DNA from: a virus
DNA length: 26,050 bases
IMG/VR virus record: IMGVR_UViG_3300046011_003628
Span: 1 to 26,050 of that record
Strand: one strand, 5' to 3'
The notes under the pieces are model-generated. The model did not search any database, was not told the DNA's origin, and was given only the letters and a program-made list of their open reading frames with translations. Numbering within the stretch: the first letter of the stretch is position 1; each line of letters opens with the position of its first letter. The position numbers were made by a program, and so were the translations under genes. Below are positions 3-17,280 of the stretch, one piece after another.

Positions 3-3000
3 CGTGTTGAAAATGACAAGAAGACTTTAGCCGAAGCCACGGTTGGTGATGTGTCTGCCGCTGCTGGCGCTGCTGCGTTTGAAACATTATTTGAAAAATT
101 TGCTACTGGCAGATTGTTGCCTGGTGCTGGGGTAACAGGAAAAACGGCTCCCGGAAGAATTGCCAAAGAGACTGGGGTTCAAGCAGGCACAGAGTTTGCA
201 GAAGAGTTTGGTACCTATTCAGCAGAAACCGCTGGGACTCAAAGAGGATTTGATTTAGAAGAGGCTGCTCTAGCGGGGCTAGAAGGGGCGATTGTGGGCG
301 GTGGACTTGGATCTACTGTTCAAACAACGAAAGAAGCTATCGATGCTTATAAGGGGCCTCAGACACCAACCACCCCTGCCGCTGCTCCTACTACTACGCC
401 GCCCGCTGCTACCCCATCTGCTGCGCCAACTGCCGCTGCGCCCACTACGCCACCCGCAGGACAGCCTCCTGTAACACCTGTTACACCGTCGGCAGGAATC
501 CTGGGTGGATATACAAACCCCGCAGATCAGACAGAAACGCAGATCATCCCGGCTCCGAACGGTCAGTTCCAAGTCTTGATGATAGACACAGCAACAGGAC
601 AGACGCAGGATGGTGGAACATTTGGCACTTTCGATGAAGCCAATAACATAGCCGCCCAGATTGCTGGTGTCGCGCCTACTGTAACAAATGTTACAGTGCC
701 TCCTGCTGTTACACCTCCCGTAACTCCTACGGGCGTAAGCGTTACGCCACCAACACCACCGACTCCTCCTTCTGGGACAGTCACGCCTCCTACTCCCCCT
801 GCTGGTACGATCACGCCCCCTACGCCACCTGTTATTAAACCTGCTGGTCGTCCTGCAAAAGAGATACAAACGGACATTAACAAAGCCCGGCAGGAACTGA
901 AACGGGCCGAGACAGCGTTTAAAAAGAACAAGGTTGGCCAAGAAGCCGTTGACGTAGCAGCGGCTAAGCTCAACACTTTTGAGGCTGAGAAGATTGCCCT
1001 TACGACACCGCCAACACTTCCCCCAGAGGTCACTGCTCCCGAGGTCGAGGCTGTACCAGAGTTACCAGCGAAAGGTCCAAAGACAGTCTTTGAAGAGAAG
1101 ATGTTTGGCAAAGAGCCAATCCTGTCCGAGGAAGAGCTGACTGCACGCAAAGACATTAGCGACAAGCAGAGAGCGCTAAACATTCAGTACAACCGCATCA
1201 AGGGCACCAAGGGATTTAATAACCTTGCTGATCTGTTGTCTGGTAGAGCAGCTCAGCCTGCAAAGATTGAAGGCGCTGATCGCCCATTGCCAGATGGGAT
1301 GCTAACGCTCGATGAAGATCTGAAGCGTGTTGACTTTGGCCTGGGACGAGGAGCAACACTTCGGCGAAATAGTTTTGTTAGCAAGACAGGTCGCGGCAAG
1401 CCATTGCAGCAAATGATTGAGGACGAGCAGCTCAACGACTTCCTGCCTGACGACCTCAAAGTATTCGTGCGTGCAGAGGATGTTTACGATCCCAATGAAT
1501 TTTCAAAGGTTCGTAATGCTGTTGACTACATCATCGAGCGCATTGAGAACAATGACTTCTTGACCGAAGACGACAAGATGGCATTGCGGGTGATAGACGA
1601 GAAGATTGAGAACTTATCAAAGGAGCTGACCCTTGGACAAATCAACGCCCGACTCGCAGAAATCGCAGCAGAAGAACGCGCTGGAGAGGCTGAAGGAGTT
1701 GCCCCTACAATCTCAGAAGCGGATATTGGAAGAGCTGAAACGCCTCAAATTAGAGAGCCAAGCCCAGAAGAACGAAGAAGAGCGGAACTAGAGCGCGACT
1801 TCTTCAGTCTTACTCCGCCTACGCCACCAGAAAGAACGACGCCCCCTGGTGCTCAAAAAGATCTGTTTGGTGTTGAAGGGCTGGAGCAAGTCACCCCGGA
1901 GAAAGTTACCAAAAGGAAGAAAGAAAATGCAGAACAACTCTCCCTCTTTGCTAATAGCCAGTTACCGCCAAACGAAGACAATCAAGCCGGAAAAACTGCG
2001 AGACGGGAGGCCGTGTCCACCGTGGATGCTTTACAGTCCACCGACAACCCTCTCGCTCTGGCCCTCTCCACAGACTACGCAAGACGACAGCGGGTCAGCC
2101 TCGTTGGACAAAAAGTAACTGGGCATGATGATCTAGCAGTTCTGTCTCAGGTCTACCGGCATCCCCGGTTTGAGACCTTTCGTATGTTCTTTGTCAATGA
2201 CAAAAATGAAGTCGTTTCTCAACTCGGTGTAACAAGTCGTTTGCCAGCGGCAGCGGTTGCAATTGTTGGCGACAGCAGCATCGAGTACATGAAAAAGGTT
2301 CAAGAGGCGGCTGTGCAAGCTGGCGCTACTGGCGTGTGGATGTTGCACAACCACCCAAGCGGCAACGTGGAGGTTAGCAAAGCCGATCAATCTATGACTA
2401 AATCTTTTACCAATGCTTTTACAAAGCTAGCGTACAAAGGCCATATCGTTATAGACACAAATAAGTATTCAGTAATTGCTCCTGAAGGATACGTACAGAC
2501 TTATTCTAAGGATATGGGGCAGAAAGAACTTCTGCAAAAAAATCCTTTGACAGCGTCCGAGGCTTTTCACCCATTTGAGATAGCAAAACGCGTAGACGAA
2601 AATCCTGAGTCTATGGTCGTCATTGCTCTTGGTAACGATTTTAGCGTAACTGGTATCACAACTATTGACAATGATGCGTTTAAAAACAAAACGCCTGAAC
2701 AAGTCACACGAACACTATTTAGGTTAGCTATTTCACAAAGCGGCGGTCGTCTGTTGGTTGCATCGAGAGATAGGGATGCACTTAAGAAAGTTGGACCATC
2801 GGTCGAAGACGGCATTTGGATCAAACCAAATGGTCAGTACGAACGGTTCTCTCAGATGTTTAGTAGGAGAACAAAATTCCTTTTTCCAGATGATCGTCCG
2901 GGTGTAGTAACACCAGACACATCTAAGCTCTTTGATTTTTTACGGATACCCAAAGTACCGAGCCAACGTGGTTATCAATACTTTAGTTGGTCTGATATGC

Positions 3001-6000
3001 GTAAGTTGATGGAAGAGCAAGTAACCATCAAAGTACAAGAGCCTCAGTCTGACCTTTTTGGCGAAGATGCAAAGACCATCAAAGACCTCGATGAAAACCT
3101 GCCCAAAGCCAAGAAGAAGCTGCCTCCTGGCCGTTCGCCTGAGCTGGCTGCACTGGCAGAGCTTTTGCAAGAAGGCAAAGTAACCAAGGAAGAATACGAC
3201 CAAGCGGTCAATCGGTTCCGTCCTATTCCTTTGTACACAGAGCCATTGACGCCCGCAACAGAGGAACAGGTAGTCAATGCACTGTCGTCGGATAAGAAAC
3301 CCAAGGCTAACGTATCTATCCCCGATGGTACGAAGGTGGGCCTGCGTCTCGACATTCCCGCGTGGAACAATCACAAGACCTTTGTTGTGTCGATCCATGA
3401 AGGTCGCCCCAAAGTTACATCGCCAAAGCCTGGGCTGGCTATTGGATACCGTAGCGTAGCGCTTGCAAAGAATGTGACGTTTGCTCTGGGTAACCAGGCC
3501 AAAGCATTAGAGATTGCTGCCGGGTCTGCTAAAGATGCGCTTCAGACGATGGAGGGTGAGTATGTCAATGTGTCCCCGTCAACCGCATTTGAAATGGCAC
3601 AAAAGGCTATTAACGATCCTCGATATGTTCAGCTAGGATTTGATCCCACCCGTCATGCTTACTTCTATGACCGGCGCACTACGCTGCCCGTAGTCAAAGC
3701 TGATGCAATATTGCAGATTGGCAACATGATCCTTGCCCGCGGCGTTGAGTATGGGTCGAAAGAGAACTTCCTGTACAACATCGACACGGTGCCGCAGATA
3801 ACGGAACAAGAATCCACAATGATCCCGTCCCTCACCCGTGACGAGATCATCGCCCAGTACGCTGCGCTTCGTGCTCGTCGTGAACGTCTGGTCCAGGGGG
3901 TTATTGAAGGTGGCGCTACAGTAGATTTACAGCGGCGTCTGACCCTCGTTGATGAGTTGTCGAAGGAGCTGAAGTCTGAAATTGAAGCGGGCTATGCTCC
4001 TAGCACCTCCCCGGAGAACTTCTTGCGTCGCGCACTAGAGGCATACGACAAGGGCGACTTGAGCGCTGATGTCTTGGCATCTATTCAGGATGCATATAAC
4101 AAGACGCCGTGGCTACTCAATGGCCTGCGTTTGTCTGTACGGACTCCCAAGAAGCCTGGTCGTTCATCGGGTAACTTTAATCCGTTTGATCGCATCGTTA
4201 CCTTGTGGAACGGTACAAGCGGAGTTGAAGATCCTTCTTCAGTTCGCCATGAGATCATGCACTCGCTTGAACAGATGATGACTGAAGCGCAGCGCAAAGT
4301 TGTGATTGATGCGTGGCAGGATGCTCTGAAGAAAGCAGTCAAGGCCAACAAAGATCAACCATCGCAAGAATACTTTAGCAAGGTCTTAGGATTCCTCGAT
4401 GCGCCTAGTGAAGCAACATTTGCGGCAGCGGTCCAGGCTATGCCGTCCTATGAGTTCTATCAGTATCTAAACCCGTCCGAGTATTGGGCGATCAATGCTG
4501 AAACGCTCATGAAGTCTAAGCTAGGGACGGCTTGGGATCGGTTTGTCAAAGCAATCAAGAAATACTTTGACGGACTGAAGAACGTCTTTGGGTTTAACAA
4601 CAAATACGCAGTTCACAAAGTATTTGACCAGATCATGCGTGATGAGCCCAGGCCAATGGGTATTCAGTCATTGACTGACTATGTGACTGAGACGGGTGCT
4701 CGCCCTGTTCCATTAGAGAACATCAAGACCAACGTATTTGGCCAGCCCATACCAAAAGGATCATGGGACGCTCCGATTGAAAGCAAGATGGACAATGTCA
4801 TCTACACGTTGCAAGACAAGCAAATTGATACGAAACGTGTGGTAGAAAACATTCGCAAAGCCGGTAAGCAAATTGCTGACCGTTGGAATCCGTATCTTCA
4901 AGAAACGCTATTCCATGGGCGAACATCTAAACAGGTTCAAGACTTTTTAAAAGGTGACCTTGAGCCGCTGATTAAAGAGCTTGGTGCAAAAGGTCTTAAC
5001 ATTGAACAGTTTGAAGAGTATCTTCACAATCGTCATGCCGAGGCCCGCAATAAGTTCAATGCAAAGCGCGATCCAAATATGGCTGATGGTGGTTCTGGGA
5101 TCTTAACGAAAGACGCCCAGGCTTACCTCGCAGGTCTCACTCCTCAGCAAAAGAAAGTCTTTGAAGACCTTGCTAAGCGGGTAGATAAGATTGTTAAGGA
5201 TACGCAACAAATCCTCGTTAAGACGGGGCAAGAGTCACAACAAACAGTTGATTCGTGGAACAAGGCGCTACAGAACTATGTTCCATTGAAGCGCGAAGAA
5301 GGCGAATACGACATCACCAAGATTGGTACTGGTGTTGGTTCTGGTATTGCTGTCAAAGGTCCGTTCAGTCGCGCAGCAGTTGGTTCGTCACGAAAGGTTG
5401 TAGATATTCTTGCGAACCTTGCTGAGCAACGCGAGCGTGCAATTGTCCGTGGAGAAAAGCTCAGGGTTAGCAAAGCGCTTTATGGTCTCGTGGTCAGCAA
5501 TCCCAACCCAGGGTTCTGGTTAGCATATGACCCAGAGGTCATGAAAGATCCTCAAAAGGTTAGGGATGAGCTAAATGCGCTTGGACTTAACCCTGCGGAC
5601 ATCGACAACATAATTAAAGAACCAGTAATACGAAGTGTGGATGCGGCTACCAACAGGGTAGTTGAACGTCCGAACAAGACGCTACTTAACTCCGAGTACG
5701 TGATCCCTGTTCGTATCAACGGCAAAGAGAAATACGTCATCTTCAACGCGCAGGATGAACGCGCCAAGCGGATGGCCATGGCGTTAAAAAATCTTGATGC
5801 CGACAATCTTGGCCGAGTCATGGGGGCGATGCAGCAGTTCACCCAATACTTCGCAAAGATCAACACTCAGTACAACCCAATCTTTGGTGCAATCAACTTC
5901 TTGCGCGACGTTCAAGGCGCGATGATTCAGATCAACACCACGCCTTTGGCTGGTGACAAGATGAAGATTTTGGGCGATACCATAGCGGCGTTGCGCGGCA

Positions 6001-7526
6001 TCTATGCTGAGGAACGTAATCGTCGTGCTGGCAAACCTCCTCTTAAGGGCACATGGTCGCAACTCTGGGAAGAGTTCCAGAAAGAGGGTGGCCAGACAGG
6101 ATTCCGCGATCAGTTTAGTCGGATGCAAGAACGTGCTGATGCGTTACAAGCAATCCTAGATCCATCGTCCTGGACTAAGACTCCTCTTGGCAAAGTATTC
6201 ACTGCAAACGGTACGCTCAAAGTTCCGATGGAAACGGCACGCAAGATGGCTGCGCCGCTCTTTAATTGGTTGGAGGATTACAACCAGTCTATGGAGAATG
6301 CCATTCGTCTGGCTGCATACAAAGCAGCATTAGACAAAAAAGATGCCCAGGGAAATAACGTATTTACCACGGAGCAGGCTGCAAATCTTGCTAAAGATCT
6401 CACGGTGAACTTTAACCGCAAGGGTCAGATTGGTCGCCAGGCTGGCGCGCTCTACGCGTTCTTTAATGCTGCTGTCCAAGGTACAACGCGCATGGCCCAA
6501 ACCATGTTCCGGTTCAACGGAAAGCGGTACGAGCTTAGCCCTCTTGGCAAGAAGATTTTCTGGGGCGGAATCATCATGGGTTCTTCCCAGGCTGCGATGC
6601 TTGCCGCCATGGGCTTTGATGAAGATGAACCGCCAGAGTTTGTAAAAGAGCGAAACTTTATTATCCCGGTGAGTAGCACAACATACCTTACTGTTCCAAT
6701 GCCGCTTGGGTACAACGTCATTCCCAACACGGGACGCATCCTAACCGAGTGGGCGCTTTCTGGATTCAAAGAGACCCCGAAGCGTGTAGCGTCGTTGACT
6801 GGTTCTCTGTTGGATATGTTCAACCCTCTAGGTAACGCTGGCTGGTCGTTCCAAACATTCTCTCCGACGGTTGGCGATCCATTGGTGGCGCTCTTTGAGA
6901 ATAAGGACTGGACTGGTAAGCCGATTGCCAAGGAAGACTTCAGCTCCCTGTCTCCCACGCCAGGCTACACCCGCGCTAAGGAAGCCGCTAGTGCATTGAG
7001 CAAAGAGCTGGCCTACTACTTGAACGCAACCACCGGTGGCACAGACTACAAGCCTGGCATCATCAGCCCTACTCCAGATCAAATTGACTATCTTATTGGG
7101 CAGTTGACTGGCGGTGTTGGTCGTGAAATTCTCAAAGCCGAGCAGACTGTAACAAGTCAATTCACTGGCGAAGAGCTGCCGATCTACAAGGTGCCGCTCG
7201 TTGGCCGGTTCATTGGCGAAACCACAGGCATCTCGGCTGAGCGTAATCGTTTCTACAGCAACCTCATCGAACTCAACAAGCATGAGAATGAGATCAAGGG
7301 GCGGATCAAAGACAGGGTTCCCACCCGTGAGTACCTCATGGAGTTTCCCGAGGCCAGGCTATATGGTTACGCCAATCAGGTCGAGCGCAACATTCAGAAG
7401 CTGAAGAAGCGCCGGGATATGCTGATTGAGAAGGATGCCCCCAAGGAGCAAGTCAAGGCGGTTGAGAACCAGATGATGGTTCAGATGAAGCGGTTCAACG
7501 ACAGGGTCAGAGAGACTCAGCAGTAA
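3..7526 (+). CDS. Giant phage polyvalent (internal virion-type) protein with JAMM and HEXXH motifs, 5' partial
   Basis: The frame is open from the left edge (first whole codon at 3), so the GTG at 51 need not be the start; at least 2507 codons remain. Domains seen in order: a helical N-terminus rich in Gly/Ala; a Pro/Thr linker coded at about 355-850 with repeated TPPTPP; a RadC-like JAMM/MPN domain with HNHPSG at 2346-2363 followed by S and D of the motif; an RPxxGFDPTRHAYFYDRRT-type segment near 3600-3680; a metallopeptidase-like HEIMH at 4248-4262; a region resembling large-polyvalent-protein domain 38 (NTQYNPIFGAINFLRD, near 5862); a hydrophobic helix near 6560-6620; and a Lys/Arg-rich coiled-coil C-terminus. 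Such multi-enzyme proteins are known in podovirus-like phages and are thought to be carried in the virion and delivered into the host. The enzymatic roles are inferred from motifs only. Its end overlaps the convergent RuvC-like gene by 10 bp. Confidence 0.9.
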   Translation, partial: RVENDKKTLAEATVGDVSAAAGAAAFETLFEKFATGRLLPGAGVTGKTAPGRIAKETGVQAGTEFAEEFGTYSAETAGTQRGFDLEEAALAGLEGAIVGGGLGSTVQTTKEAIDAYKGPQTPTTPAAAPTTTPPAATPSAAPTAAAPTTPPAGQPPVTPVTPSAGILGGYTNPADQTETQIIPAPNGQFQVLMIDTATGQTQDGGTFGTFDEANNIAAQIAGVAPTVTNVTVPPAVTPPVTPTGVSVTPPTPPTPPSGTVTPPTPPAGTITPPTPPVIKPAGRPAKEIQTDINKARQELKRAETAFKKNKVGQEAVDVAAAKLNTFEAEKIALTTPPTLPPEVTAPEVEAVPELPAKGPKTVFEEKMFGKEPILSEEELTARKDISDKQRALNIQYNRIKGTKGFNNLADLLSGRAAQPAKIEGADRPLPDGMLTLDEDLKRVDFGLGRGATLRRNSFVSKTGRGKPLQQMIEDEQLNDFLPDDLKVFVRAEDVYDPNEFSKVRNAVDYIIERIENNDFLTEDDKMALRVIDEKIENLSKELTLGQINARLAEIAAEERAGEAEGVAPTISEADIGRAETPQIREPSPEERRRAELERDFFSLTPPTPPERTTPPGAQKDLFGVEGLEQVTPEKVTKRKKENAEQLSLFANSQLPPNEDNQAGKTARREAVSTVDALQSTDNPLALALSTDYARRQRVSLVGQKVTGHDDLAVLSQVYRHPRFETFRMFFVNDKNEVVSQLGVTSRLPAAAVAIVGDSSIEYMKKVQEAAVQAGATGVWMLHNHPSGNVEVSKADQSMTKSFTNAFTKLAYKGHIVIDTNKYSVIAPEGYVQTYSKDMGQKELLQKNPLTASEAFHPFEIAKRVDENPESMVVIALGNDFSVTGITTIDNDAFKNKTPEQVTRTLFRLAISQSGGRLLVASRDRDALKKVGPSVEDGIWIKPNGQYERFSQMFSRRTKFLFPDDRPGVVTPDTSKLFDFLRIPKVPSQRGYQYFSWSDMRKLMEEQVTIKVQEPQSDLFGEDAKTIKDLDENLPKAKKKLPPGRSPELAALAELLQEGKVTKEEYDQAVNRFRPIPLYTEPLTPATEEQVVNALSSDKKPKANVSIPDGTKVGLRLDIPAWNNHKTFVVSIHEGRPKVTSPKPGLAIGYRSVALAKNVTFALGNQAKALEIAAGSAKDALQTMEGEYVNVSPSTAFEMAQKAINDPRYVQLGFDPTRHAYFYDRRTTLPVVKADAILQIGNMILARGVEYGSKENFLYNIDTVPQITEQESTMIPSLTRDEIIAQYAALRARRERLVQGVIEGGATVDLQRRLTLVDELSKELKSEIEAGYAPSTSPENFLRRALEAYDKGDLSADVLASIQDAYNKTPWLLNGLRLSVRTPKKPGRSSGNFNPFDRIVTLWNGTSGVEDPSSVRHEIMHSLEQMMTEAQRKVVIDAWQDALKKAVKANKDQPSQEYFSKVLGFLDAPSEATFAAAVQAMPSYEFYQYLNPSEYWAINAETLMKSKLGTAWDRFVKAIKKYFDGLKNVFGFNNKYAVHKVFDQIMRDEPRPMGIQSLTDYVTETGARPVPLENIKTNVFGQPIPKGSWDAPIESKMDNVIYTLQDKQIDTKRVVENIRKAGKQIADRWNPYLQETLFHGRTSKQVQDFLKGDLEPLIKELGAKGLNIEQFEEYLHNRHAEARNKFNAKRDPNMADGGSGILTKDAQAYLAGLTPQQKKVFEDLAKRVDKIVKDTQQILVKTGQESQQTVDSWNKALQNYVPLKREEGEYDITKIGTGVGSGIAVKGPFSRAAVGSSRKVVDILANLAEQRERAIVRGEKLRVSKALYGLVVSNPNPGFWLAYDPEVMKDPQKVRDELNALGLNPADIDNIIKEPVIRSVDAATNRVVERPNKTLLNSEYVIPVRINGKEKYVIFNAQDERAKRMAMALKNLDADNLGRVMGAMQQFTQYFAKINTQYNPIFGAINFLRDVQGAMIQINTTPLAGDKMKILGDTIAALRGIYAEERNRRAGKPPLKGTWSQLWEEFQKEGGQTGFRDQFSRMQERADALQAILDPSSWTKTPLGKVFTANGTLKVPMETARKMAAPLFNWLEDYNQSMENAIRLAAYKAALDKKDAQGNNVFTTEQAANLAKDLTVNFNRKGQIGRQAGALYAFFNAAVQGTTRMAQTMFRFNGKRYELSPLGKKIFWGGIIMGSSQAAMLAAMGFDEDEPPEFVKERNFIIPVSSTTYLTVPMPLGYNVIPNTGRILTEWALSGFKETPKRVASLTGSLLDMFNPLGNAGWSFQTFSPTVGDPLVALFENKDWTGKPIAKEDFSSLSPTPGYTRAKEAASALSKELAYYLNATTGGTDYKPGIISPTPDQIDYLIGQLTGGVGREILKAEQTVTSQFTGEELPIYKVPLVGRFIGETTGISAERNRFYSNLIELNKHENEIKGRIKDRVPTREYLMEFPEARLYGYANQVERNIQKLKKRRDMLIEKDAPKEQVKAVENQMMVQMKRFNDRVRETQQ
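470..485. promoter_or_regulatory. Palindrome TGTAACA-CC-TGTTACA inside coding sequence
   Basis: This is a perfect 7-bp inverted repeat with a 2-bp spacer, matching the family found upstream of the recombination and replication operons. It lies in the Pro/Thr linker of the giant protein (codons for V-T-P-V-T). VT codons can produce half-sites by chance, so a binding role is uncertain. Confidence 0.4.
678..697. promoter_or_regulatory. Palindrome with 9-bp arms (ACTGTAACA / TGTTACAGT) inside coding sequence
   Basis: This is a perfect 9-bp inverted repeat around AA, as long as the best intergenic copies of the family. It lies in the same Pro/Thr linker of the giant protein. The flanking A/T and C/G of the arms also match the intergenic copies at 8003 and 17098, which chance codon choice does not readily explain. 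Confidence 0.45.
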
Positions 7527-7976: not shown

Positions 7977-8058
7977 CTGTAACATTTGTTACAGGGCAGT
8001 CAACTGTAACAGCCTGTTACAGTACGTAACATTGTTACAGTTTGTAACATTTGTTACA
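7977..8058. promoter_or_regulatory. Cluster of four TGTAACA/TGTTACA palindromes (putative operator array)
   Basis: Four inverted repeats are seen: 7977-7994 (8-bp arms, spacer TT), 8003-8023 (10-bp arms around one C), 8026-8038 (GTAACA-T-TGTTAC) and 8043-8058 (TGTAACA-TT-TGTTACA). Their centres are about 28, 19 and 18 bp apart. The cluster lies between the divergent ruvC-like gene and the recombination operon, upstream of the promoter at 8076-8105, and starts 8 bp from the ruvC-like ATG. This placement fits an operator or activator array controlling both directions. The binding protein is unknown; candidates in the window are the ParB-like protein (18119-18946), the ribbon-helix-helix-like protein (11079-11357) and the small winged-helix proteins. 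Confidence 0.7.
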
Positions 8059-11914: not shown

Positions 11915-12685
11915 ATGGCAACAAAGAAAGAAGTTAGTACGGAAATTTTTGTAACCGAGCAGCGTCGCGAGACATTGAACTTTTGTATCTTGGGCACCAC
12001 CCCGCTGATTCATAACCGAATGAGTCAGAAGGTATTGCAGACCCTACTCTTCCCGGCTCCAAGAAAGAACGCGGCAGAGAAGGCCAGCAGCCTGAAGCAC
12101 AACCCGCTTCAAGAGTACCGGGATAGCCCATACGTTACTTTGGATGACAGCGATCCAACGTTGATTACTGTCCTAGCTACAGGGTTTAAGGGCGGCATGA
12201 TGACGGCAGCGCTCGATATGCCTGGCGTAGCAAAGACCCAGATCAAGCGGCAGGTCTATGTTGACGGTCAGATCGTCCACATCTATGGAGTCCCGGAGAT
12301 GATGATGGCTGTTACCCGGTCGGCAGACATCAACAAGACGCCAGACGTTCGGACCCGTGCAGTTATGCGGAAGTGGGCTTGCTACCTTTCCATGTCCTAC
12401 ACCGTGCCCTTGCTGAATCAACAGTCGGTTTCCAATCTGTTGGCAGCAGCAGGCATCGTGTCTGGTCTGGGCGACTGGCGGCAGGAGAAGGGTTCTGGAA
12501 ACTTTGGTTGCTACAAGCTCACCACAGCAGATGATCCTGAGTTCTTGGAAGTGATTGCTAATGGCGGGCGTCAGGCTCAGAAGGATGCGCTAGAGAATCC
12601 TAAGTTCTACGATCAAGAGACTGAAGAGTTGTACTCCTGGTTTGAGACAGAAAGCAAACGCCGTGGGATCAAGGTGGCAGCATGA
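11915..12685 (+). CDS. Unknown 256-aa phage protein, possible RAMP-like fold
   Basis: AAGGAGAG before ATG 11915 marks a strong ribosome site, stronger than those of its neighbours. Visible features are FCILGTTPLIHNRMSQ at residues 23-38, a Lys/Asn-rich stretch, ATGFKGGMMTAALDM at 88-102, TRSADINKTPDVRTRAVM at 134-151, and a C-terminal Gly-rich segment GLGDWRQEKGSGNFGCYKL at 184-202. I recognise this as the kind of protein that recurs in siphovirus and podovirus recombination modules, but I know no function. Short beta strands, a KGG helix turn and a C-terminal glycine-rich loop are reminiscent of RAMP/Cas7 RNA-binding proteins; this is speculative. It is coupled by ATGA to the 154-aa gene, after which the GG-pentamer tract begins. 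Confidence 0.6.
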   Translation: MATKKEVSTEIFVTEQRRETLNFCILGTTPLIHNRMSQKVLQTLLFPAPRKNAAEKASSLKHNPLQEYRDSPYVTLDDSDPTLITVLATGFKGGMMTAALDMPGVAKTQIKRQVYVDGQIVHIYGVPEMMMAVTRSADINKTPDVRTRAVMRKWACYLSMSYTVPLLNQQSVSNLLAAAGIVSGLGDWRQEKGSGNFGCYKLTTADDPEFLEVIANGGRQAQKDALENPKFYDQETEELYSWFETESKRRGIKVAA

Positions 12686-13146
12686 AGCCATCACGCAAAG
12701 ACATCAACGCTGAAATTAGTCGTATCTACAAAGAGAACAATGGGATAACCCCCAACCTTTTGGTAGAAGAGGCTAAAAAGCCAGACAGCATCCTGCATCA
12801 TTTATTTGAGTGGGATGACGAGAAGGCTGGCCATGCGTACCGGCTAGACCAAGCGCGGCAGATCATAACCAGCGTAAAGATCAACATCATCAACGAAACG
12901 AAGATGATTAGCGCGGTGAGTTATGTGCGTGATCCAAGATTGCCAAGCGACCAGCAAGGGTATGTGTCTATCGAAACTCTCAAGACGGACAAAGATCTTG
13001 CAAGGGAATCTATTCAACTGGAGTTTGCCCGTGCATATGCCCATCTGCACAAGGCAAAGATTCATGCGGAGATTCTTGGGATGCAAGATCAAGTGAGCAC
13101 ATTAATCACCAATCTTCAGGAAACGCAGCAAACCGTAACAGCGTAG
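12682..13146 (+). CDS. Unknown 154-aa phage protein with helical C-terminus
   Basis: The start overlaps the previous stop (ATGA). The N-terminal part (PNLLVEEAKKPDSILHHLFE, then WDDEKAGHAYRLDQARQII) looks like a short helical motif found in a widespread phage family. The middle is beta-like (TKMISAVSYVRDPRLPSDQQ). The C-terminus is a long amphipathic helix likely to form a coiled coil. There is no catalytic motif. The tight coupling to the 256-aa gene suggests the two proteins act together. The stop lies immediately before the GG-pentamer tract. The function is unknown. Confidence 0.6.
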   Translation: MKPSRKDINAEISRIYKENNGITPNLLVEEAKKPDSILHHLFEWDDEKAGHAYRLDQARQIITSVKINIINETKMISAVSYVRDPRLPSDQQGYVSIETLKTDKDLARESIQLEFARAYAHLHKAKIHAEILGMQDQVSTLITNLQETQQTVTA

Positions 13147-13786
13147 TGTGCAAAGGTTAGGTTTTGGATTGGACGGGTCGTTATTGGTGTGGCTGTCAGG
13201 GTGGGGAACGGACGTGATGGGCTCGGTTGCTACGGGTGCGGTTTGGTATGGCTGTTCAGGTTCGGACATTTATGGAAAGGTTGGGTCGGGTCGTTATTGG
13301 TTCGGCTGTTACGGATGGGCACGGATGGTTTTGGAAGGGCCATAGTGGTCCGGTCAGATTCGGCTGTTCGGGTTCGGATCGTCATAGAAAGATTCTGACT
13401 GATTGGGAAGGGATAGGTAATTTACGGCTGTCCAGGTTCGGACGGGCAAGTTGTAACGAGTTCGGGTAAGGCCCGGTTGGGCAGGAAGTGTGCAAAGGAA
13501 AGGACTGATTCGTAGAGGTGTAAAGAGGTCCGACATGGTCAGTTTTGGCTGACACGGTTAGGTGGTGATAGTTAGAAAAAGGCCAGGTAGGGCGCGGTGT
13601 GGCTGTCGGGGAAAGGAGATCTACGGCGGGGCACGGAGTGGTCGGGTTTGGCGAGGCTGTCAAGGTTAGAAGTGGTTCGTTGCGTCGGGGTGAGTTTTGG
13701 CTGGAAGTGTGCAGAGGATAGATGAGGAACGGCCCTTTGAGGTCTGGACGGGTGAGGTTAGGAGTGCTGAGGCACGAAAGGAAATC
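13147..13786 (+). repeat. 640-bp noncoding tract with GG every 5 bp
   Basis: From just after one stop codon to the ribosome site of the next gene, GG dinucleotides recur on the + strand at 5-bp spacing (NNNGG units, roughly 125 slots). Between 13716 and 13771, for example, GG starts at 13716, 13726, 13731, 13741, 13746, 13751, 13756, 13761 and 13771. Between 13264 and 13304 it starts at 13264, 13274, 13279, 13284, 13289, 13299 and 13304. The register shifts by 1-2 bases only a few times. In 13201-13260, 28 of 60 bases are G and only 9 are C. A second layer of repetition is carried by GGCTGT, spaced about 54-64 bp. Frames through it read as low-complexity Gly/Trp/Arg sequence and are not convincing proteins. 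The function is unknown. Confidence 0.85.
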
Positions 13787-14113
13787 ATGAAAAAACTAAT
13801 AGCAGGTCTGTTGTTCGTGCCAGCAATGGCGCAGGCTGAGTTCATGTCAGGAAACAACCTTTACAAAGACATGCAAGGGGATGCTTTGGATAACATCCAT
13901 GCGCTGGGCTACGTGCTCGGCGCGGCGGACTCCGCGATCAACGTCACTGTCTGCCCACCAGAAGGAGTAAAGGCCGGGCAGGTCTACGACATTATCAAGA
14001 AGTTCCTGGAGGCCAATCCTGCTCTTCGTCACTATTCCGCAGACACCATAGTCAGGACAAGGCTAGAGGCGCTGTGGCCCTGTAAGCAGCAAGGCAAGGG
14101 GCGCGGGACATGA
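13787..14113 (+). CDS. Secreted Rap1a/Tai-like protein
   Basis: A 108-aa protein starting at ATG 13787 behind AAAGGAAATC. A longer upstream frame exists but would be translated from the repeat tract and would bury the signal peptide. Residues 1-18 (MKKLIAGLLFVPAMAQA then EF) are a textbook Sec signal peptide. The mature part reads MSGNNLYKDMQ, a LGYVLGAADSAIN segment, VCPPEGVKAGQVYDIIKKFL, and LEALWPC, which is the Rap1a/Tai immunity fold with its two cysteines (in VCPPEG and WPC). Known relatives neutralise periplasmic type VI amidase effectors; related proteins are common in phages without proven roles. It probably acts in the periplasm of a Gram-negative host. The stop overlaps the next gene (ATGA). 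Confidence 0.78.
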   Translation: MKKLIAGLLFVPAMAQAEFMSGNNLYKDMQGDALDNIHALGYVLGAADSAINVTVCPPEGVKAGQVYDIIKKFLEANPALRHYSADTIVRTRLEALWPCKQQGKGRGT

Positions 14114-16915: not shown

Positions 16916-17230
16916 GGGCGCTCCGACTGCGGTCTGTGTGGACGGGGTCTCAACGCCAGCGCACTGACCAAAGATCTGAAACTGGGGGAAAGCTGCGGAA
17001 GAATCAGAACGGGGTGGCGAAGCTAGTGCCCCAGCAGCGAACGACTGGCGAGTCAAAGCGGCTCCGGCGGACAGACTTTGTAAAGGCCACCAGATCAACT
17101 GTAACATCTGTTACAGTAAGACGATCTGGGATGGCTGAGTCTTGCCCACCAGCAGACAGGTGTCGTTAAGTAGTTCTACGAGATAGCTTAAAGATTAAAA
17201 ACAACAAAGGGGGGTAGCTCCCTCAAAATT
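16916..17230 (+). other. Noncoding leader-like region before the replication operon
   Basis: No convincing gene is seen in this ~315-bp stretch; two open frames crossing it are Arg/Ser-rich and lack ribosome sites. It contains a nested stem: GCTGC (16992-16996) with GCAGC (17034-17038) enclosing GGGGTG with GTGCCCC (17011-17032). It also has a GACT-GGCG-AGTC hairpin (17043-17054) and a TGTAACA palindrome framed by CCAGATC/GATCTGG (17090-17129). It may be the 5' leader of the operon or a further structured RNA. Confidence 0.45.
17098..17117. promoter_or_regulatory. Palindrome with 9-bp arms, TGTAACA family, nested in an outer repeat
   Basis: ACTGTAACA and TGTTACAGT flank TC. The site is enclosed by a second inverted repeat, CCAGATC at 17090-17096 and GATCTGG at 17123-17129, so either a large DNA cruciform or an RNA hairpin of two stacked stems can form. 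Confidence 0.6.
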
Positions 17231-17234
17231 ATGG

Positions 17235-17267
17235 TGTAACATTGTTACAGGGTGTAACATAGTTACA
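17235..17267. promoter_or_regulatory. Two tandem TGTAACA palindromes before the PP-loop gene
   Basis: TGTAACA-T-TGTTACA at 17235-17249 and TGTAAC-ATA-GTTACA at 17253-17267 lie just upstream of the ribosome site (AGGAGAG) and ATG at 17281. They match the cluster before the recombination operon, so the two operons probably share a regulator. I see no clear -35/-10 pair here. Confidence 0.65.
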
Positions 17268-17280
17268 GACAGGAGAGAAC

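Follow-up and report, generated by a model that had tools for sequence, protein, structure and literature searches.

A GG-periodic intergenic tract beside a predicted Vipr gene as a probable VIPR guide array in a phage genome

Why would a 640-bp noncoding tract between two phage genes place GG at 5-nt steps along one strand? The question arises in the window, by which we mean the whole 26,050-nt stretch of viral DNA analyzed here. A sequence-only reading of the tract had offered three interpretations (tandem G-quadruplexes, an R-loop-prone origin, or an RNA on which a protein with a 5-nt footprint recognizes the GG marks) and knew of no described element with this design. The last statement is out of date. 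VIPR, for Viral Interference Programmable Repeat, was first described in a 2026 preprint (April 2026; PMC13142463), which pairs Vipr proteins, ancestral RAMPs with a G-rich loop, with vrRNAs of alternating GGY and NN. There, the NN of the vrRNA reads double-stranded DNA with one base skipped per step, and the system, a proposed forerunner of CRISPR, acts as a repressor in inter-phage conflict. We consider it highly probable that the window carries a VIPR system and that the tract is a guide array silencing genes of rival phages. The third of the earlier interpretations was right in essence, since a Vipr RAMP is predicted one gene upstream of the tract. Sequence alone had yielded the tract class, its partner family and the consensus GGYNN before PMC13142463 was consulted; units were parsed by NN, and targets sought, at a later stage and with the 1-nt-skip rule given there.

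The periodicity itself is real. The + strand of the tract contains 110 GG dinucleotides and 9 CC, and 49 pairs of GG stand at lag 5, with more peaks at 10, 15, 20 and 25 nt. The autocorrelation against shuffled and other DNA that had been proposed as a check bears out the NNNGG register: 5000 first-order Markov resamplings of the tract gave 18.8 ± 5.7 lag-5 pairs, with a maximum of 41, and the best 640-bp stretch elsewhere in the window has 11. A pattern of eight GG at 5-nt steps, with at most three mismatches, occurs at 20 places in the window (0.31 expected), and all 20 lie within the tract. The opposite strand of the tract has no GG periodicity. Although the tract fills the gap between the genes as described, its periodic part spans 13155–13762 and begins 8 bp, not 5 bp, past the stop codon (13144–13146). 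The three bases between GG pairs had been taken to vary freely. The first of them is biased in perfect GGxNNGG (T 51%, A 31%, C 18%); the Y position of GGY is thus 69% Y and 31% A in the window array, against 6% A in pooled tracts. As RNA, the tract folds no more strongly than shuffled sequence (z = +1.0), and it showed no conserved, structured tail at the 3′ end. An Rfam scan found no family within the tract, and a promoter and terminator scan gave nothing above chance. The G-rich, C-poor composition of the + strand (41% G, 14% C) and the GG at 5-nt steps are what one would look for in a DNA element made of tandem two-tier G-quadruplexes or in an R-loop-prone replication origin, and that alternative has to be weighed against what lies beside the tract and within it.

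The neighbor that matters most is a predicted Vipr (Table 1). The protein carries the motif I-x-G-x-x-P-L ... G-x-G-D-x-R-x ... G-x-F, and a profile of 68 of its homologs matches PDB entry 36pp_D, "SUSP1 Vipr protein," with an E value of 5e-41. Its AlphaFold model (pLDDT 93.5) has Csm3 and Csm complexes as top Foldseek matches (E 5e-6) and superimposes on Csm3 with a VIA Z of 10.1 and an rmsd of 3.9 Å over 153 residues. Sequence and model together thus identify this ORF as the putative Vipr of a VIPR system. In a tree of 73 Viprs, the window groups with L053, L004, L067 and an Aureimonas genome (support 100/100), among Viprs whose loci carry the accessory protein that we call B.

The association of Vipr with such tracts extends well beyond the window. 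An IMG/VR search for nine GG at 5-nt steps matched at least 120 contigs, many of them several times; most strong tracts are 100–1545 bp long, consist of highly diverse GG-pyrimidine-NN and share the strand of their flanking genes. When 66 strong viral tracts were picked by the DNA pattern only, Vipr lay within 1.5 kb of 56 of them, at a median gap of 38 bp and on the same strand in 55 cases; some of those lacking a nearby Vipr are cut by a contig edge. The converse selection, made by protein only and hence free of bias toward the GG pattern, used a Vipr sub-clade profile, since the profile of all 68 was too diverse. Of the 80 viral contigs so chosen, 78 carry B, and in 66 a tract lies no more than 1.5 kb from Vipr on the same strand; across their 264 kb, a single tract lies more than 1.5 kb from Vipr. 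Pattern matches in genome contigs behave differently: just 3 of 17 strong-tract loci have Vipr, and most of the matches cannot be called VIPR on this evidence. Vipr, B and tract also occur together in the named phages Mycobacterium Saal, Gordonia Ecliptus and cyanophage Cy-LDV1. A DNA element acting through quadruplexes or R-loops does not explain why many unrelated phages have such tracts beside the gene of a Cas7-like protein.

The second gene of the locus encodes B, which has the motif FEWDD..A..YR..QAR. It was at one point considered the primary partner of the tracts, an idea dropped in favor of B as second partner, since Vipr is nearly universal beside tracts; B is present at 21 of the 66 strong viral tract loci. 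Pfam, NCBIfam and PADLOC give B no confident name, the best Pfam match, GMIP-like_FCH, being below its cutoff. A fold search with its model (pLDDT 92.5) returned weak winged-helix matches (MecI/BlaI, Z-alpha and FoxO, Z 5–6) and long-helix matches with Z up to 7.3. With matches this weak, a DNA-binding role for B stays putative.

Within the tract, parsing by NN yields about ten units of 8–12 XNNGG pentamers each, with CTGT or CTGA between them (Table 1). The "few slips of phase" recognized earlier do exist; they are not random, being mostly this recurring 4-nt element after 8–12 pentamers. In homologous B-carrying arrays the 4-nt slip is CAGG, again every 8–12 pentamers (18 times in L090 and 11 times in L109). 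Three copies of a 17-nt element, AGTGTGCA[AG]AGG..., divide the guide array into sub-arrays. In the close relative L002 most units are nearly unchanged and the U3–U4 stretch is replaced and shortened, as guide turnover would predict. Some guides may be dead, since many GG have decayed (U4, U6) and the Y of GGY is relaxed. Arrays of another build exist as well: in those of L014 (640–1197) and L013 (3968–4636), unlike in the window array, the guides are separated by long repeated tails, such as GGCCTTATTGCGAGGAATAGGGCGGCTAAAAACCGCC in L014. Directly past the array, 13787–14113 (+) encodes a Rap1a-family immunity-like protein (Pfam PF18602, E 2.5e-15). Elsewhere in the window, 8015–8058 and 17233–17268 contain short tandem repeats whose GTAAC/GTTAC units resemble palindromes and which may be operator sites.

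Table 1. Features of the candidate VIPR locus (window coordinates)
Feature	Position	Strand	Basis
Predicted vipr gene, 256-aa RAMP (Csm3/Cas7-fold), phrog_4652	11915–12685	+	Profile, model and fold matches
Putative accessory gene B (vap-like), 154 aa, phrog_15946	12682–13146	+	Start overlaps vipr stop (ATGA)
Putative vrRNA guide array: XNNGG pentamers, about ten units split by 4-nt slips	13147–13786	+	GG periodicity, unit parsing
17-nt element copy 1, AGTGTGCAAAGGTTAGG, 5′ edge of array	13145–13161	+	Repeat family D3
CTGT separator	13193–13196	+	Unit parsing
Further CTGT separators	13252, 13306, 13364, 13428, 13603, 13657	+	Unit parsing
Variant separators	CTGA 13549, CTGG 13701	+	Unit parsing
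Candidate guide U1, 11 repeats	13197–13251	+	Parsing; no exact target
Candidate guide U2, 10 repeats	13256–13305	+	Parsing; no exact target
Candidate guide U3	13310–13363	+	Parsing; replaced in relative L002
Candidate guide U4, 12 repeats, GG partly decayed	13368–13427	+	Parsing; missing or replaced in L002
Candidate guide U5, 10 repeats	13432–13481	+	Parsing
17-nt element copy 2, AGTGTGCAAAGGAAAGG, inside array	13487–13503	+	Repeat family D3
Candidate guide U6, 11 repeats, GG partly decayed	13494–13548	+	Parsing; no exact target
Candidate guide U7, 10 repeats	13553–13602	+	Parsing
Candidate guide U8, 10 repeats, GGxAAxGAxACxGGxACxGTxCGxTTxGA	13607–13656	+	Parsing; exact targets in at least 120 viral contigs
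Candidate guide U9, 8 repeats	13661–13700	+	Parsing
17-nt element copy 3, AGTGTGCAGAGGATAGA, inside array	13706–13722	+	Repeat family D3
Candidate guide U10; target-matching part 13723–13767 (9 repeats)	13718–13777	+	Exact target in 6 viral contigs

A tandem 5-nt register with higher-order similarity between units could also arise in a degenerate pentanucleotide satellite, spread by slippage and without function. The units are almost all different, with a 10-mer diversity of 0.97, and GG is kept while NN varies. These observations, together with the strict association with strand and neighbors and the matches to coding sequence described below, make a satellite exceedingly improbable. Nor would a DNA element account for guide-length units between 4-nt slips. 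A guide array, by comparison, should have targets, and the units were examined accordingly.

Five of the guides (U1, U2, U6, U8 and U10) were converted to NNx patterns for an exact target search. All 20 fixed bases of U8 are matched in at least 120 viral contigs. Among the matches listed there are 67 different spellings at the DNA level. Essentially every one encodes GKDTGTVRF[DE], and all are open in the NNx frame, with the skipped base at the wobble position; the sequence given as the U8 target is GGNAANGANACNGGNACNGTNCGNTTNGA. The protein is phrog_2480, of unknown function, and the gene immediately downstream of its own in L402 is ATPase-like and carries a Walker-A motif. U10 matches 18 of 18 fixed bases in 6 viral contigs, again in the wobble frame, on the peptide DTPELR[DE]YV. 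Five of these 6 contigs are related and share one gene family at the target, a 383-aa protein with DUF2800/PD-(D/E)XK in L456. L456 also encodes a homolog of the C terminus of the window's large polyvalent protein, a virion-gene product (48% over 90 aa), and so the U10 target looks like a competing relative. That polyvalent protein, encoded at 51–7526 (+), has 2491 aa with RadC/JAB and LPD38 domains, and its C terminus is the part conserved in the U10-targeted contig.

How readily could such matches arise by chance? The other three of the five guides, U1, U2 and U6, have no exact target in viral contigs, which indicates a low background of exact matching. The U8 match taken alone could be luck at a level that we estimate, rather than compute, at a few per cent; for U8 and U10 together, in frame and in phage genes, chance is much less likely. 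At the level of sequence, both are candidate noncontiguous targets, matched with a 1-nt skip. Among bacterial genomes, neither U8 nor U10 has a match in 300 from Burkholderiales, and U8 has one in 289 from the class of Aureimonas. The window also contains a full-length match to the Rfam RNA RF02932, "Betaproteobacteria-1" (16931–17053, +; 91 bits), which hints at a betaproteobacterial host.

The skip rule was tested independently on other arrays, of which 420 guides were compared with all collected sequence after the arrays had been masked. At 90% identity or more, 8 guides match with a 1-nt skip, as compared with 0, 3 and 0 for skips of 0, 2 and 3, and shuffling the NN order leaves a mean of 0.6 matches with the 1-nt skip and a maximum of 1 in 15 shuffles. 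The 8 guides are not all independent, as one is common to L094 and L251 and one to L073 and L103. At a looser threshold of 85%, the excess is modest (19 matches versus 9.1 shuffled). The guide common to L094 and L251 reads a Walker-A motif (IGKTSLLW) in contigs retrieved through U8, and in L402 its target gene adjoins that of U8; thus, two different arrays appear to be aimed at one operon. In a separate case, 22 of 24 bases of a guide from L024 match a site in L453 that encodes TIAHEIGHLVF in its reverse frame, a peptide resembling an HExxH metalloprotease motif.

These results bear on the remaining alternatives. A 5-nt register beside a protein with an RNA-binding fold is also what would be expected of an RNA serving as a sponge, decoy or scaffold for a ring- or filament-forming RNA-binding protein, TRAP-like or CsrA-like, with spacer bases free. 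The NN are not free noise, since a single skip rule matches entire units to conserved coding motifs in other phages, at a rate above that of shuffled controls, and we regard a sponge or scaffold as very unlikely. The same constant GG with information-bearing NN and 1-nt-skip targets, added to the linkage with Vipr and the slips at guide boundaries, render the quadruplex and R-loop interpretations similarly implausible. A guide array of a VIPR system accounts for these features together.

It is useful to contrast the locus with systems already described. In PMC13142463, VIPR arrays are tandem YNNGG repeats with constant GGY and hypervariable NN, "a related consensus" being allowed, and guides have 9–16 repeats each; the window units have 8–12, U9 being the one with 8. 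The same preprint distinguishes seven VIPR types, with accessory genes vap1–6 beside vipr. Its type II examples, from Escherichia phage SUSP1 and a P. fulva prophage, resemble the window in their RAMP-fold Vipr, minimal two-gene phage locus and long intergenic tract, in pentamers of the form GG-Y-NN, where GG is constant and NN varies (8–12 repeats per guide in the window), and in targets that lie in rival phages and are matched with a 1-nt skip at the wobble base. Array architecture is said there to differ by type. The vrRNA of the SUSP1 clade has an invariable structured 3′ tail, whereas the window guides run contiguously, set off by 4-nt slips, with no tail evident, and have H in place of a strict Y. 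The preprint mentions overlapping vrRNAs in staggered arrays, and the window architecture may be of that kind. Felixounavirus wV8, a presumed SUSP1-like relative of type II, is placed elsewhere in the Vipr tree, and the window's B has no match to gene 94, which adjoins Vipr in wV8. In the original record of wV8 (L462), direct repeats "DR_4" at 2259–2316 and 3652–3709 overlap or adjoin its vrRNA tracts, parts of which were evidently annotated as plain repeats. Comparable loci are Saal gp51–52 and Ecliptus gp19–20, annotated as hypothetical, where Vipr, B and a GGYNN tract stand together; the separator is CAGG there and CTGT in the window, and Y is mostly C there. Class 1 CRISPR-Cas, through its type III Csm3/Cas7 backbone, offers a further likeness, that of a repeating RNA read by oligomerizing RAMPs, to judge from the match of the Vipr model to Csm3. 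Unlike CRISPR, the window array has no identical repeats and spacers, and its guide information would lie in NN steps every 5 nt rather than in a contiguous spacer. Indeed, no CRISPR-type array of identical repeats and unique spacers was found in the tract, and no cas gene was found among the subset of window genes scanned against Pfam.

How might the locus work? The tract would be transcribed on the + strand into an array of about ten guide RNAs, which would be expressed and processed, possibly at the CTGT slips. Vipr, encoded just upstream, would coat each guide, probably with one subunit per 5-nt XNNGG repeat, and present the two variable bases. The NN pairs would then read double-stranded DNA, skipping one target base per step, usually the wobble base of a codon, and the bound complex would repress its target gene, with early replication and recombination genes of competing phages as the likely targets. 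Protein B would assist, perhaps by binding DNA. The RNA binding, DNA binding and repression attributed to the Vipr complex are carried over by analogy from the related type in PMC13142463. A more specific proposal, which we offer tentatively and hold to be possible rather than probable, is that the window represents a B-type VIPR. Its array would be tail-less and contiguous, with a 4-nt slip (CAGG, here CTGT) in place of a 5-nt repeat ending each guide; its Vipr would tolerate GGA; and its guides would be aimed at conserved motifs (GKDTGTVRF, DTPELRDYV, Walker-A) in the replication operons of rival phages, the wobble base being the one skipped. In such a B-type system, guides on conserved peptide motifs that skip the wobble base would close off synonymous escape.

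The locus is relevant to VIPR in several ways. First, the phage to which it would extend the system has a Vipr and an accessory gene distinct from those of the type that has been studied by experiment. Second, U8 and U10 supply two concrete natural candidate targets, and the test of the skip rule with 420 guides backs the code. Finally, a scan for GG every 5 nt combined with a Vipr and B profile finds probable VIPR systems in many phages, among them named laboratory mycobacteriophages in which these loci are annotated only as hypothetical.
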